Below are positions 33,823 through 62,489 of a DNA stretch of 64,000 nucleotides, one piece after another. The position numbers and the translations under genes were made by a program. Position 1 is the first letter of the stretch. Every line of letters starts with the position of its first letter. Below the pieces are notes generated by a model. The model made no database searches. It was not told the DNA's origin and worked only from the letters and a program-made list of their open reading frames with translations. The stretch comes from a virus. The stretch lies in the IMG/VR virus record IMGVR_UViG_3300028025_002828, positions 1-64,000 of that record; one strand, given 5' to 3'.

Positions 33823-34815
33823 ATGATCAAAAAAGTAGACCATAAACTTACAGATACACGAGATGCGTTCAAACCATTTCATTATCCTTGGGCATATGAG
33901 GCATGGCTAAAACATGAGCAAGCGCACTGGTTACATACAGAAGTGCCAATGTCGGAAGATGTGAAAGACTGGAAGAAAAAACTAACACCACCACAAAAGC
34001 ATTTCCTAACAAACATTTTTCGTTTCTTCACACAAGGCGACATTGACGTTGCTGGTGGTTACGTAAAAAATTATCTACCATATTTTCCACAACCAGAAAT
34101 TCGTATGATGCTTATGGGATTTGCTGCTCGTGAAGCATTACACATTGCAGCATATAGTCATCTGATTGAAACTATCGGTCTACCAGATACAACTTATAAT
34201 GACTTCTTAGAATATCAAGAGATGAAAGATAAACATGACTACGTTCTTGACTTGAGTTCGAAGAACGGAGATAAACAATCAACTGCCACCCATATCGCCG
34301 TGTTCAGTGCTTTCACTGAAGGAATGCAGTTGTTCTCATCTTTCATTATGTTGTTGAACTTTCCTCGTCATGGTATGATGAAAGGTATGGGACAAATCGT
34401 TACTTGGTCAATCGTTGATGAAACAATGCATGCTGAGAATATGATTAAATTGTTCCGCACATATATTGAAGAGAACAAAGAAATATGGAATGATGAACTT
34501 AAAGCAAAGATTTATACTATCGCTGAAAAGATGGTTGAACTTGAAGACAAGTTTATCGATCTAAGTTTTAGCATGGGTGACATGCCAGATCTTACACCAG
34601 AAGATGTCAAGAAATATATCAGATACATTGCTGATAGACGTTTAATTTCTCTTGGATTGAAGGGAATATATAAGGTTAAGAAAAATCCTTTACCGTGGGT
34701 AGAGGAAATGATTAATGCACCGACACATGGTAACTTCTTTGAAAATCGTGTTACTGATTATGCCAAAGGTGCACTCAAAGGCGATTGGTCAGAAGTATGG
34801 GGTAAAGCAGCATAA
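33823..34815 (+). CDS. nrdB: Ribonucleotide reductase small subunit NrdB
   Basis: 330 residues. Diiron ligands are visible in FFTQGDIDVAG, FAAREALHIAAYSHLIE (E, H), FTEGMQLFSSFIML and SIVDETMHAENMIKLF (E..H). Class I R2 protein that generates the tyrosyl (or other) radical for NrdA. Tyr in the expected helix (AAYSHLI) supports a tyrosyl-radical type. Its stop overlaps the desaturase start by 1 nt. Confidence 0.94.
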   Translation: MIKKVDHKLTDTRDAFKPFHYPWAYEAWLKHEQAHWLHTEVPMSEDVKDWKKKLTPPQKHFLTNIFRFFTQGDIDVAGGYVKNYLPYFPQPEIRMMLMGFAAREALHIAAYSHLIETIGLPDTTYNDFLEYQEMKDKHDYVLDLSSKNGDKQSTATHIAVFSAFTEGMQLFSSFIMLLNFPRHGMMKGMGQIVTWSIVDETMHAENMIKLFRTYIEENKEIWNDELKAKIYTIAEKMVELEDKFIDLSFSMGDMPDLTPEDVKKYIRYIADRRLISLGLKGIYKVKKNPLPWVEEMINAPTHGNFFENRVTDYAKGALKGDWSEVWGKAA

Positions 34816-35525
34816 TGATTGAGTTAATTTATGTACTAGTAATGACACACATTACTATTGTTTGCGTAACCCTTTATTTACATAGAGGACAAACACACAG
34901 AGGGATTGAGTTTAATCCTATCCTGTCACACTTTATGCGTTTTTGGTTGTGGTTTACAACTGGCATGGTCACTAAACAATGGGTGGCTATTCATCGTAAA
35001 CACCATCAAACAACAGAAACAAAAGAAGATCCGCACAGTCCAATGTTCTATGGCTTAAAGCGTGTGTTGTTTGGTGGTGCGTTTCTTTACCACGACGCAA
35101 GCAAAGATAAAGATCTTGTTAGTAAATATGGAGTGGGAACCCCAGATGATTGGATGGAGAAAAATGTATACACTAAACATTCTCGTCTAGGGATTACTTT
35201 GTTATTAATCGTAAATTTACTTTGTTTTTCATGGATAGGTTTATTGATTTGGGGTATTCAAATGATATGGATTCCGTTCTGGGCAGCAGGTGTTGTCAAC
35301 GGAATTGGGCATTTTTGGGGATATCGTAACGGCGAAACAAGAGACAATAGTAAAAACATATTTCCTCTTGGAATTATTATTGGTGGAGAAGAACTACATA
35401 ATAATCATCACTTAGAACCAGCAAATCCTAAGTTAAGTAGTAGGTGGTTCGAGTTTGATATTGGTTGGATGTGGTTAACTCTATTTACTAATTTAAACTT
35501 GGCAAAAGTAAAAAATGGCAGTTAA
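34815..35525 (+). CDS. Membrane fatty-acid desaturase (first copy)
   Basis: 236 residues with four hydrophobic segments and the three His boxes of delta-9-type acyl desaturases: HRGQTH (about residues 23-28), HRKHH (61-65) and HNNHH (near 195). It would insert a double bond into fatty acyl chains in the host membrane. A second, more distant desaturase lies at 57421. Follows nrdB directly, so the two diiron enzymes are co-transcribed. Confidence 0.88.
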   Translation: MIELIYVLVMTHITIVCVTLYLHRGQTHRGIEFNPILSHFMRFWLWFTTGMVTKQWVAIHRKHHQTTETKEDPHSPMFYGLKRVLFGGAFLYHDASKDKDLVSKYGVGTPDDWMEKNVYTKHSRLGITLLLIVNLLCFSWIGLLIWGIQMIWIPFWAAGVVNGIGHFWGYRNGETRDNSKNIFPLGIIIGGEELHNNHHLEPANPKLSSRWFEFDIGWMWLTLFTNLNLAKVKNGS

Positions 35526-56958: not shown

Positions 56959-57427
56959 TGCATTTATGGACACTGCGGAGAGATTCGCAGAGTTGAGTTC
57001 TGCTGTCCGACTGAAGGTAGGTGCGGTAGTTGTTCAAGAAAATCGTATCATCTCGATTGGCTACAATGGTATGCCTTCTGGATGGACAAACGAATGTGAA
57101 AATAAGATTTATGTTGATGCAACATTAGAAGAATCAATGTTATATCAGAGCAAGGTAGATGTCTACCTTGATGTAAATAAAAAATTATATGAATTAAAAA
57201 CAAAAGATGAGGTTATTCATGCTGAAGCAAATGCTATATCGAAACTGGCACGTGATGGTGAGCGAGCAGCTGGTGCCACAATGTTTTGTACTCACGCACC
57301 TTGCATCCAATGCGCTAAAATCATTTACGGTGCTGGTATAAATACATTCTACTATCGTTCTCAATATCGAGACAATGACGGATTGGAGTTTTTAAAGAAA
57401 TGCAATATTCAGGTAGAGCAATGTTAA
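56939..57427 (+). CDS. dCMP deaminase
   Basis: 162 residues from ATG 56939 (AAGGA 9 nt upstream; ATG at 56933 is the alternative). Zinc motif HAEANAI (94-100) and PCIQC (121-125) with an insert between GYNGMPSGWTNEC and the active site as in T4 Cd. It converts dCMP to dUMP to feed ThyX. Overlaps the desaturase by 7 nt. Confidence 0.93.
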   Translation: MKQKWIDAFMDTAERFAELSSAVRLKVGAVVVQENRIISIGYNGMPSGWTNECENKIYVDATLEESMLYQSKVDVYLDVNKKLYELKTKDEVIHAEANAISKLARDGERAAGATMFCTHAPCIQCAKIIYGAGINTFYYRSQYRDNDGLEFLKKCNIQVEQC

Positions 57428-58170
57428 TGTTGGCAGTGCGGACTAGTCTTAGTCTAGCATGTCATGTGTTTGTCATAATGATGCTGGTGTCAGCAGGTGT
57501 TTCATTTACTGCAGTTTTAATTGCCATCCCAATGATTTTAGTTGGTGGCTTTGCTGTCACAGGATTTTTACATAGATCTATTGCTCATAGAACATACACA
57601 ATCACCAAAGGGTGGTTAAGGAAAACGCTACTGTTCTCCTCGTTGTTCAGTTTAATCGGAACACCACTAGGATGGGCGATAGTGCATAGAATGCATCACA
57701 GAAATCTAGATGGACCAGGAGATCCTCACAGTCCATGGCAGATAGGATTCTTTAGAAGTTACTGTCACTTGTGGCAACTCGATGAGAAGACAGTTGATCT
57801 TGGTGGGTGTCGAGATATCATAACCAACCGAGAGTTGTTGTTTTTCCACAAACACTGGTTGAAGATAACTCTTGTAATTTGGTTGACTTTTTATATGATA
57901 TGGGGTATGATAGGTCTATATGCGATAGGGTTAGCTGGTGTGTTTGCTTTCCATGCCTTTGGTGTTGCGAATGCGGTATGTCATTACGGAAGAGCAAGTG
58001 GTGATATCGTAGACCTACCTAAAATGAGTTGGCTAAACTTCGGTGAGAACTTTCATAGTTACCATCACAGTTTTCCTAGTGCGTATAGATTTACTGCAAC
58101 AAAATCAGACCCATCGGCAACTATCATTGAGTGGTTGATGAAAAATAATTTAGCAGTAGTTCGAAAGTGA
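57421..58170 (+). CDS. Membrane fatty-acid desaturase (second copy)
   Basis: 249 residues from ATG 57421 (AGGTAG upstream; ATG 57400 possible). Several hydrophobic segments and three His boxes: HRSIAH, HRMHH and HSYHH, with GDPHSPW after the second box as in acyl-CoA desaturases. More like bacterial delta-9 desaturases than the copy at 34815. It may keep the host membrane fluid or change it during infection. Confidence 0.88.
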   Translation: MLMLAVRTSLSLACHVFVIMMLVSAGVSFTAVLIAIPMILVGGFAVTGFLHRSIAHRTYTITKGWLRKTLLFSSLFSLIGTPLGWAIVHRMHHRNLDGPGDPHSPWQIGFFRSYCHLWQLDEKTVDLGGCRDIITNRELLFFHKHWLKITLVIWLTFYMIWGMIGLYAIGLAGVFAFHAFGVANAVCHYGRASGDIVDLPKMSWLNFGENFHSYHHSFPSAYRFTATKSDPSATIIEWLMKNNLAVVRK

Positions 58171-58974: not shown

Positions 58975-58980
58975 GATTAT

Positions 58981-59072
58981 GGAAGATGATGCAGGTGCGT
59001 TGGTGCGCCGACCAGCCTTGAAAACTGGGTTCTCAGAAATGGGATGGGGTTCGACTCCTCCGTCTTCCGCCA
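58981..59072 (+). tRNA. tRNA-Ser (TGA)
   Basis: Loop CTTGAAA; acceptor GGAAGAT/GTCTTCC, G73, CCA; long variable arm (class II), total 92 nt. Confidence 0.9.
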
Positions 59073-59796: not shown

Positions 59797-60360
59797 ATGA
59801 ATGTTCTAGCACTAGACCAAAGTGGAATGCCACGGAAGTGGATAAATTTTGAAGATGCTGTTACATATCAAGCAAAGGGTATGGTAAATTGGTCACTTGG
59901 CGAAACGATTAAAGTGTTTCGTGGTGGTCACAATGATCAAGGAATTCAATCAGTAATTAGCATACCATCTATCATCGCTGTTCGTGGGTCTTCATTGAAG
60001 ATGAGTGGTAAAGTTATTTTGACAAACAAATCTCTATTCAGTAGAGATAGAAATCTTTGCGCATACTGTGGTGATACATTTTCATTGTCGCATCTTTCGC
60101 GTGATCATGTTATGCCAAAGTGTGAGGGTGGTAGAGATGTATGGACAAATGTTGTTACTGCGTGTAAACCTTGTAACATAAAGAAGGGTCGTAAGATCTT
60201 AGAGACTACTACTATGAAACTTCTCTATGTTCCGTATGAGCCGAATCATTTTGAAAACATGATTCTGATGAATAGAAATATTCTTGCTGATCAGATGGAA
60301 TATTTGATGTCGGGTGTTCCGAAAAATAGTAGAGTACGAAAAGATGTGGGTGTGCACTGA
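59797..60360 (+). CDS. HNH endonuclease
   Basis: 187 residues. RNLCAYCGDTFSLSHLSRDH is the zinc/HNH start, VMPKCEGGRDVWTNVVTACK the Asn-His core, and CKPCNIKKG the second zinc pair. N-terminal LALDQSGMPRKWINFEDAV matches a free-standing HNH family of bacteria and phages. It sits within the tRNA cluster, and its last 15 nt form the 5' acceptor strand of tRNA-Cys. It may be a mobile or homing-type gene; no intron is visible. Confidence 0.88.
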   Translation: MNVLALDQSGMPRKWINFEDAVTYQAKGMVNWSLGETIKVFRGGHNDQGIQSVISIPSIIAVRGSSLKMSGKVILTNKSLFSRDRNLCAYCGDTFSLSHLSRDHVMPKCEGGRDVWTNVVTACKPCNIKKGRKILETTTMKLLYVPYEPNHFENMILMNRNILADQMEYLMSGVPKNSRVRKDVGVH

Positions 60361-60499: not shown

Positions 60500-61208
60500 A
60501 TTGAGTTGAAAATGCTTGATGATGTGAAAATAAACACCACTTGGCGACCACTGAGGAACAGTGGTAAAACCAAAGACCCATGCCAACATGGGTCCACCGA
60601 GTGTAAGACAGAGGGATCGGATCCCCGAGGTCGCCAGTTGAAAAATTGCTGGCAAATGTTCTTTAAAAAGGTATGCGGTTTCGTGATTGTCTGCCACGTC
60701 GGGAGACGTTAAAACAATCACACTTTGCACGATTCGTCTATCGGTTAGGACACATGGTTTTCATCCATGTAAGAGCGGTTCGACTCCGCTATCGTGTACC
60801 AGATTTAATTGCATTGGGTTGCCAAGCCAGTAGGTGATCTAGGAGAGGATAACCAATCGACGGATTGGCTCTCGCTAGGTTACATGAAAGATGGAAACGA
60901 AGTGGAGTTCTACAGGGATGTAGAATGATGAAGCGGATACGGTGGTCACGCTGGAACAACTTGAATTGTAATGTGAGAAAGCAGCCAATCGTAGGACGGC
61001 TACGTGGGCATCCGAGAACTCGGGATGCTGCTGATCATCCCAGTGTAATTAAATGTGGTATTAGTTTAGTGTTATCAAGGTATCGTCATAAGACGTTATG
61101 ACTACTCGACAGTTAGGGTGCGACTGAAACTGTCTGATATAACTGCTATTCGCTTGTCAGTGCTAGCTACATTGTTGACAAATAGGCAGATAACACTAAA
61201 CTAATATC
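60500..61208 (+). ncRNA. Large multi-domain structured RNA with embedded tRNA-Glu
   Basis: Driven by its own consensus promoter. Domain A: TGGCGACC (60542-60549) / GGTCGCCA (60629-60636) closing hairpins CCACTG/CAGTGG (loop AGGAA), GACCCATG/CATGGGTC (CCAA loop) and GGGAT/ATCCC. A further GTGATTGT/ACAATCAC arm (60683-60690, 60714-60721) is capped by ACGTC-GGGA-GACGT, a GNRA loop. tRNA-Glu follows. Domain B: a 16-bp helix (60803-60818 with 61039-61054, two G-U pairs) closes an arm 60834-60883, TTCTACA-GGGA-TGTAGAA (60908-60925), CGTAG/CTACG and GCATCC/GGATGC. Domain C: a 20-bp helix (61057-61076 with 61189-61208) closes three hairpins. Domains abut with 1-2 nt spacers. No long reading frame with a ribosome site fits. 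Size, ornament and tRNA context recall GOLLD/ROOL-type RNAs. Confidence 0.82.
60727..60801 (+). tRNA. tRNA-Glu (TTC), inside the large RNA
   Basis: Loop TTTTCAT between CATGG/CCATG; acceptor GCACGAT/ATCGTGT, A73, CCA. Flanked directly by helices of the large structured RNA. Confidence 0.9.
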
Positions 61209-61583: not shown

Positions 61584-62156
61584 ATGGAAAAAGTTACACT
61601 TCGTAAAGCAAATGCAATTCAAGGCGAGATCCGTAGATTGATCGCAAGTAAAAATGCTAGTGAATCAATTAGCATCACGGAATTCACTGCAGATGTTGCA
61701 GAAGTTCTTGAGAAAGCAATGGATAATTTTGCTGTTGATGTTACACGTAAGGTAGCATTAAACACAGCATTGTATAACATTCGTAAGAGTGTTTCTCGGG
61801 CAAATGCCACTTCTGGCATCAGCGATCTACTTGCTGATATTGAGTTGATCGATGCAACTATGGCAATCTACAGTGGCATTAGCACTAAAGAAGTAGCTAA
61901 GTCTTTGACTGAGATTAATGCACGTGTTGAGAAAGTTAAAGCAGCACCAGCAGAAACACGTATGTATGGTCGTTACGATAATGTTGAAACATCTGTTGTT
62001 GAACAGAGCACTATCGACATTGCCAAAGATACAGTTAAAAAATTAAAACGTGAGAAGCAAAATGCTTCTGACAAACTATTGACGTTGAATGTCAATACAA
62101 CAATTGACATCTCTGATGTCGATGCGATGGTTTTGAAAGTAGAAGGTATTATTTAA
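61584..62156 (+). CDS. Conserved phage protein of unknown function
   Basis: 190 residues from ATG 61584 (AGGAAAG upstream). Helical: KVTLRKANAIQGEIRRLIAS and VTRKVALNTALYNIRKSVSR; beta-type end DKLLTLNVNTTIDISDVDAM. A protein with this start (VTLRKAN.IQ) is known to me from several phages without function. It interrupts the tRNA cluster between tRNA-Thr and a structured RNA; RNA binding is a speculation. Confidence 0.7.
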   Translation: MEKVTLRKANAIQGEIRRLIASKNASESISITEFTADVAEVLEKAMDNFAVDVTRKVALNTALYNIRKSVSRANATSGISDLLADIELIDATMAIYSGISTKEVAKSLTEINARVEKVKAAPAETRMYGRYDNVETSVVEQSTIDIAKDTVKKLKREKQNASDKLLTLNVNTTIDISDVDAMVLKVEGII

Positions 62157-62161
62157 GTTTT

Positions 62162-62403
62162 GAGGGACAATGCGTAGAGGATAGGGAATAGAGCAAAAAA
62201 CTAATACTTAAAAGTATTGGCTTTGGTCTTGAAAACCAACTCCTGACAAATTCGTCCAACCTTGTTGTTGCTCCACGATACACTAGACTGTTATAGTCGC
62301 TGCTTATTGCTTCGTGTTGTATAACTCTTGTGGGCTGTCCATTGCATATTGCACACTGCAAATTGCTTTGCGACTATTCGCTTGAATTGAAACATTGTTC
62401 CTC
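62162..62403 (+). ncRNA. Second structured RNA in the tRNA cluster
   Basis: Closed by an 11-bp helix, GAGGGACAATG (62162-62172) with CATTGTTCCTC (62393-62403), one G-U pair. Inside are GAGCAA (62191-62196) / TTGCTC (62268-62273) enclosing AATACT/AGTATT (62203-62218) and TTGGT-CTTGAAA-ACCAA (62223-62239), a 7-nt loop that looks like a TGA anticodon arm; and ATAGTCGC (62293-62300) / GCGACTAT (62370-62377). No coding frame. Begins just after the 62156 stop and ends 9 nt before tRNA-Leu. Confidence 0.68.
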
Positions 62404-62412
62404 ACCCTGTTA

Positions 62413-62489
62413 GCCCCGATGACGGAATTGGTATACGTGTTGGTCTTAGAAGCCAAATTTTGAGAGTTCGAGTCTCTCTTGGGGCACCA
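62413..62489 (+). tRNA. tRNA-Leu (TAG), short variable loop
   Basis: Loop CTTAGAA between TTGGT/GCCAA; acceptor GCCCCGA/TTGGGGC, A73, CCA. Variable region 5 nt (ATTTT). Confidence 0.88.

Follow-up and report, generated by a model that had tools for sequence, protein, structure and literature searches.

A structured phage RNA family with an array of seven-nucleotide units, encoded behind the gene for a predicted coiled-coil-like protein

The stretch of viral DNA analysed here (the window: positions 1 to 64,000 of the 71,292-base virus record IMGVR_UViG_3300028025_002828) contains a tRNA array of 25 tRNA genes, as predicted by ARAGORN, and within it a gap between a gene for a 190-aa protein and the tRNA-Leu(TAG) gene at 62413. 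An earlier note had read this gap as a non-coding, structured RNA with an 11-bp closing helix, three internal helices and a hairpin resembling the anticodon arm of a tRNA-Ser(TGA), either a tRNA mimic or the 3′ companion of a large RNA upstream. What is this RNA, then, and what might it do? The region folds with a minimum free energy of −69.3 kcal/mol, against a mean of −52.8 (SD 4.1) for shuffled sequences (z −4.0), and none of 200 shuffles folded as well, as the structural reading had predicted. All four helices are present (Table 1): the closing helix (P1) gains one extra T-A pair (62161/62404), and the internal ones correspond to P2, P3 and P4. The non-coding character also held, because the lengths of 23 homologues fall into every residue class modulo 3, and stop codons interrupt each forward frame of the five homologues in which frames were counted.

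Table 1. Features of the structured RNA and its neighbouring gene; positions are those of the window
Feature	Position	Strand	Basis
Partner gene, 190-aa protein predicted to be helical	61584..62156	+	Directly 5′ of the RNA in 23/23 aligned loci
Whole structured RNA	62161..62404	+	z −4.0; homologues; 23-sequence alignment
P1 closing helix, 5′ strand, GAGGGACAATG at 62162-62172	62161..62172	+	215/220 cells paired, 22 sequences
P7, 5′ strand GAATAG; distant partner CTATTC at 62374-62379	62186..62191	+	Permutation test
P2 hairpin, CTAATACT-TAAA-AGTATTGG	62201..62220	+	Sequence; two compensatory changes, window vs L003
P3 hairpin, TTGGT-CTTGAAA-ACCAA (the "anticodon-arm-like" hairpin)	62223..62239	+	Stem 100/110 cells; loop differs in 3/23
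UGCUC, immediately 5′ of P4	62269..62273	+	Alignment; invariant in 23/23
P4, 5′ strand CACGA	62274..62278	+	108/110 cells, 10 distinct strand pairs
P5 hairpin, GACTG-TTA-TAGTC	62286..62298	+	Sequence/fold
ATAGTCGC, P6 alternative partner of GCGACTAT at 62370-62377	62293..62300	+	Permutation test
Two more 7-nt-spaced units, CTGCTTA TTGCTTC, before the P4 3′ strand	62300..62313	+	Same place in relatives
P4, 3′ strand TCGTG	62312..62316	+	Pairs with CACGA
Six heptads, TTGTGGG CTGTCCA TTGCATA TTGCACA CTGCAAA TTGCTTT	62328..62369	+	Six TG at exact 7-nt steps
GCGACTATTCGC, 3′ hairpin GCGA/TCGC, or P7 or P6 strand (mutually exclusive)	62370..62381	+	Fold, permutation
P1 closing helix, 3′ strand, CATTGTTCCTC at 62393-62403	62393..62404	+	Pairing, covariation

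Homologues were collected by searching with the neighbouring protein, with DNA patterns derived from the RNA and with protein alignments. The whole RNA occurs in 23 viral loci: the window, L002, L003, L006, L007, L011, L014, L017, L044 (=L018), L039 (=L019), L020, L022, L038 (=L023), L027, L040, L041, L042, L052, L064, L069, L071, L072 and L073. The copies in L021, L024 and L025, which by eye have the same sequence as that in L017, were counted once with it, L060 is truncated by a contig end, and three diverged-looking versions with four heptads (L045, L123 and L129) were kept outside the alignment. In every aligned locus P1 begins 4-7 nt past the stop codon of the 190-aa-protein gene; the gene after the RNA is a tRNA in 20 of the 23, the exceptions being L044, L039 and L038, of which the last two have a terminator-like hairpin and its T run 3′ of the RNA. 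Pattern matches in L005, L009, L010, L012, L013, L015, L016, L048 and L049 were rejected as chance, with no homologous RNA around them. When an annotated phage collection was searched at the nucleotide level with the RNA as sole query, only chance matches came back.

Covariation was examined in 22 of these sequences, leaving out L002, which is near-identical to the window. Paired cells numbered 215 of 220 in P1 (best of 2,000 permutations, 181), 108 of 110 in P4 (best permutation, 91) and 100 of 110 in the P3 stem (best permutation, 91), with ten distinct strand pairs in P4, such as CCACG/CGTGG, CCCAT/ATGGG, CTCGA/TCGAG, CCGTT/AACGG and CTGGG/CCCAG. Permutation tests of this kind leave some signal of shared ancestry, which is reduced among 11 representatives less than 70% identical; there the counts were 106/110 for P1 (best permutation, 94), 53/55 for P4 (46) and 51/55 for the P3 stem (48), and none of 5,000 permutations did as well for any of the three helices. 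P1, P4 and the P3 stem thus keep their pairing while their sequences change; conservation of pairing in relatives had been set beforehand as a test of the structural reading, which stands. Elsewhere in the molecule, P2 differs between the window and L003 by two compensatory changes (C-G to U-A and U-A to C-G), its shape not being the same in other relatives, and the stem equivalent to P5 carries a GNRA-type tetraloop (GAAA, GCAA or GTAA) in some of them. The fold shown by these results is a closed one, comprising P1, P3, P4, P5 and a long-range helix, P7; the RNA represents a genuine, uncatalogued family of structured phage RNAs.

The best-kept feature of the RNA is a 42-nt stretch of six heptads with the consensus YUGYNNN, hereafter the heptad array. 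Six TG at exact 7-nt spacing were found in 20 of the 23 sequences. In L038 and L069 four of the steps are exact, and a single step of 8 nt brings the array to six units; the array of L073 is broken by an insertion. No shuffle out of 500 matched the array of the window, and between 0 and 2 of 500 reproduced it for each six-unit sequence. Periods of 4, 5, 6, 8, 9, 10 and 11 nt gave chains of one to three units only, with the exception of an 8-nt chain of five in L073. A scan of 24 whole records found the six-heptad pattern once in each of five, namely four large phages from metagenomes that carry the RNA, plus the Caulobacter phage CcrColossus, and not in the other 19, and a reversed-pattern control over the same 24 records gave no matches. 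A heptad DNA pattern nevertheless had at least 116 matches in bacterial genomes; among the matches listed, the 80 loci that were read are mostly near-identical tandem heptamers, but they include 35 matches with diverse units. Since similar arrays exist in bacteria, the array, though rare, is not unique, and on its own it is no proof of function. In three bacterial contigs inspected more closely, L180, L181 and L214, the RNA architecture is absent; they contain degenerate TTGY/CTGY heptad arrays (L214 3330-3470, L181 5470-5515 and L180 3905-3955).

The strand GCGACUAU can enter two alternative helices, P7 with a 5′ strand and P6 with the 3′ strand of P5, and a third possibility, the local hairpin GCGA..UCGC, is in competition with these two. 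P6 and P7 each scored better than all of 5,000 permutations with the 22 sequences and all of 20,000 with the 11 representatives. The strand windows were, however, picked by eye before permutation, so both helices are weaker than P1, P4 and P3. P7 is better supported than P6, because its own partner ranked first in eight of the 11 representatives, as opposed to five for P6. P6, P7 and the local hairpin would exclude one another in a single molecule, which suggests either a switch or intermolecular pairing; in the former case, P7 and P6, both conserved and mutually exclusive, might switch the array between two states.

Screening against Rfam (4,227 families, gathering scores) covered the window, 12 of the 22 other homologues and four of the seven jumbo-phage loci described below, and gave no match on the RNA in any of them. 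The GOLLD covariance model (RF02032) matched elsewhere in the loci and not on the heptad RNA, and the ROOL model had no match in the scanned loci. A literature search, whose coverage excludes most subscription journals, found no description of the heptad RNA. Stable non-tRNA RNAs inside a phage tRNA cluster are known from T4 (RNAs C and D), and the heptad RNA of the window resembles these in its location. According to the excerpts of PMC12286853, GOLLD and ROOL are RNAs of phages, located near tRNA islands and lacking a known function. GOLLD is likewise a structured phage RNA of tRNA islands, but it exceeds 400 nt, compared to 240 nt for the heptad RNA, which is tied to one protein gene, and heptads are not mentioned for it in those excerpts. 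ROOL, also a structured phage RNA often near tRNA islands, has, according to the same paper (PMC12286853), no identified protein partner, whereas the heptad RNA has a candidate. GOLLD itself occurs in the tRNA arrays of L090 and of L019, L040, L041 and L042, lying upstream of the heptad RNA in these four and, in the last three, just 5′ of tRNA-Met and the partner gene.

The search with the neighbouring protein reached the Dolichocephalovirinae, with seven regions from cultured jumbo phages of Caulobacter and Brevundimonas. In CcrPW, CcrColossus, Kikimora, Gurke, Kabachok, Domovoi and Bambus, the same gene, which is gp272 in CcrColossus, is annotated as hypothetical and has 284-314 nt of unannotated sequence behind it, in all seven cases among closely packed genes. 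There are six exact heptads in the gaps of CcrPW, CcrColossus, Kikimora and Gurke, and five in those of Kabachok, Domovoi and Bambus. The gaps of Kikimora and CcrPW fold better than shuffled sequences (z −5.7 and −5.1, respectively), and a long closing helix is present in these and in the gaps of CcrColossus and Bambus, which were folded without shuffles. ARAGORN predicted no tRNA in the four jumbo-phage loci scanned, where the RNA sits among protein genes; the RNA is thus not tied to tRNA arrays, and its description as the 3′ companion of a large upstream RNA finds no support as a general rule. Its constant neighbour across the 23 aligned loci is the 190-aa-protein gene and not the upstream RNA. 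These phages have been described (PMC3556154 and PMC10070969); the terms ncRNA and noncoding do not appear in the available portions of either paper, nor does gp272 in that of the first or intergenic in that of the second. A 213-nt unannotated gap in Vibrio phage SJSY21 (L137 2118-2330) was not counted: it folds with z −4.7 and its upstream gene is weakly similar (45.9% over 37 residues, E 0.9), but its 8-nt UG period is not significant, being equalled in 146 of 1,000 shuffles.

The protein encoded by the neighbouring gene is predicted to be coiled-coil-like, consisting mostly of long helices in an AlphaFold2 model built from an alignment of 56 relatives (mean pLDDT 90.8, pTM 0.70). Its nearest solved fold is DIP1984, a protein without an assigned function (PDB 3kdq; Foldseek E 0.049, probability 0.99, TM 0.43/0.51); VIA comparison with 3kdq gave a Z of 10.7, a value common among helical bundles, with a large rmsd of 6.8 over 141 aligned positions. 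In sequence, among five proteins scanned against the DIP1984 family model (NF038048, cut-off 70), the only one listed, from L041, scored 13.1 bits. Structure searches returned no convincing match to an RNA-binding fold, the predicted viral structural relatives including proteins from CcrColossus and from Erwinia and Vibrio phages. No strong named family was found in Pfam, NCBIfam, PHROGs or PDB sequences, and for the protein encoded in the window the sole match was PHROG 25230 (E 1.2e-7), a group of unknown function; a scan of bacterial genomes with one peptide pattern, a weak test, found no relatives. The mean net charge of the 56 members is near zero, with 12 positions kept as K/R and four as D/E, and the prevalence of basic residues among the conserved positions would suit a face that binds phosphate.

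The protein family extends beyond the RNA. From 80 loci kept, 79 have at least 200 nt downstream of the gene, and six heptads follow it in 21 of these, four or five in three (one of them, L059, cut by the contig end) and none in 55. Phages with distant partner proteins lack the heptad pattern throughout their records. Behind the distant gene relatives in L074, L077, L079, L090 and L104 there is a different, non-heptad sequence with the shared motifs GACCCCG ... GGACAGAGTAACAGCTCAGTCTAGGGCT.

With moderate confidence, we propose that this new phage RNA family, behind the gene for a coiled-coil-like protein, is most likely the RNA half of a ribonucleoprotein. Such a particle would be the best-supported mechanism, in view of the linkage to the gene, the basic residues conserved in the protein and the even spacing of the heptads. 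The RNA would be transcribed together with the 190-aa-protein gene, and each heptad would be one putative binding site, so that the RNA might serve as a scaffold for several copies of the neighbouring protein; a host factor filling the heptads would be less likely than this protein. The terminator-like hairpin found after the RNA in L019 and L023, such as would be seen if the RNA had a fixed 3′ end, would fit a ribonucleoprotein, while the breadth of the protein family, the net charge near zero and the failure to find a convincing RNA-binding fold argue against it. A more ambitious version, which we put forward only tentatively, is that of a widespread ribonucleoprotein in which the coiled-coil protein multimerises on a bistable RNA with six sites at a 7-nt pitch, as a ruler or assembly scaffold. 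If true, such a ribonucleoprotein would span lytic phages from tRNA-rich environmental ones to the Caulobacter jumbo siphophages.

The strongest alternative, although we consider it unlikely, is a cis-acting 3′-UTR element, with the RNA being part of the mRNA of the 190-aa-protein gene and affecting its stability, processing or autoregulation. Its place 4-7 nt behind the stop codon throughout the aligned set would be natural for such an element, and the RNA was never seen without the gene, as far as a few pattern searches go; however, at 240-310 nt, and with an array of six sites, it would be a large stability element, and most relatives of the protein do without the RNA. RNase P and RNase E are expected to release tRNAs flanking an RNA, and the flanking tRNAs would thus be cut off here, which also speaks against it. 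A sponge, in which the UUGY sites would titrate a host RNA-binding protein during infection much as CsrB and RsmZ act on CsrA, appears less probable still. CsrB/RsmZ and the targets of TRAP carry several regularly repeated protein sites per RNA, and the multiple near-identical, probably single-stranded sites on one stable fold would suit this role, six of them perhaps matching a hexamer or a six-domain protein. Nevertheless, the motif is YUGY at 7 nt instead of the GGA or NAG of those systems, no CsrA or TRAP gene is involved as far as seen, we know of no host protein with a preference for UUGY at 7 nt, and the fixed link to one phage gene favours a phage partner.

An antitermination element like nut or rrn boxBAC, by which polymerase would cross the untranslated tRNA array, is highly improbable. 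The order hairpin-UGCUC-UGUGG is reminiscent of one, the invariant UGCUC resembling the start of boxA (UGCUCUUUA) and UUGUGG(G)C recalling boxC; but boxA is not conserved, because the bases after UGCUC vary with P4 and its ten strand pairs, the RNA has terminator-like hairpins behind it in L019 and L023, and within the extent of the jumbo-phage loci there is no tRNA array downstream of it.

As for the hairpin that gave rise to the tRNA comparison, the 7-nt loop on its TTGGT stem is indeed there and the rest of a tRNA is indeed missing, with neither acceptor nor T arm, and neither ARAGORN nor cmscan with Rfam (RF00005) found a tRNA at 62161-62404. In L042 this hairpin is the tip of a longer stem. 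Mimicry of a tRNA or its anticodon arm, or a decoy for an anticodon nuclease, is hardly credible, since the CUUGAAA loop, although kept on a paired stem in 20 of 23 sequences, loses U33 in two (CCUGAAA in L064 and L073) and changes its anticodon in one (CUUGUUA in L072), no other tRNA element accompanies it, and it was not seen by eye in the jumbo-phage versions. An apparent tRNA-Ser(TGA) of ordinary shape, with a long variable arm, lies at about 58979-59071; it was missed by ARAGORN and gave a sub-threshold Rfam match to tRNA-Sec.

The list of large structured RNAs known from phages is short, and the heptad RNA adds to it an uncatalogued family supported by covariation; a six-fold array of constant 7-nt pitch and otherwise free sequence is a rare feature in RNA. 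Unlike GOLLD and ROOL, it has a candidate partner protein and is also present in jumbo phages that are cultured on Caulobacter and Brevundimonas, which makes the role of such RNAs in lytic infection directly testable.

Other elements were observed around the RNA. The large RNA upstream, at 60805-61208 between tRNA-Glu and tRNA-Tyr, has two structured domains (z −6.7) and recurs in the equivalent position in L002, L003, L007 and L017; L027 has only the second domain (about 61062-61208), located behind tRNA-Gly and beside the heptad RNA, and in the window the 11-mer CTATTCGCTTG is common to both RNAs. A compact RNA fold (60536-60645, z −4.2) between tRNA-Cys and tRNA-Glu is absent from the near-identical L002. 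The tRNA array also includes an HNH endonuclease gene (59797-60360), and a phage-encoded fatty acid desaturase (Pfam PF00487) lies at 57400-58170, with a similar-looking ORF, by eye, at 34815-35525. Finally, tRNAs with a CTA anticodon, called Pyl by ARAGORN, are found in L019 (2618-2694), L044 (720-796) and L039 (54-130); they are possible amber suppressors and may hint at TAG recoding in these phages.
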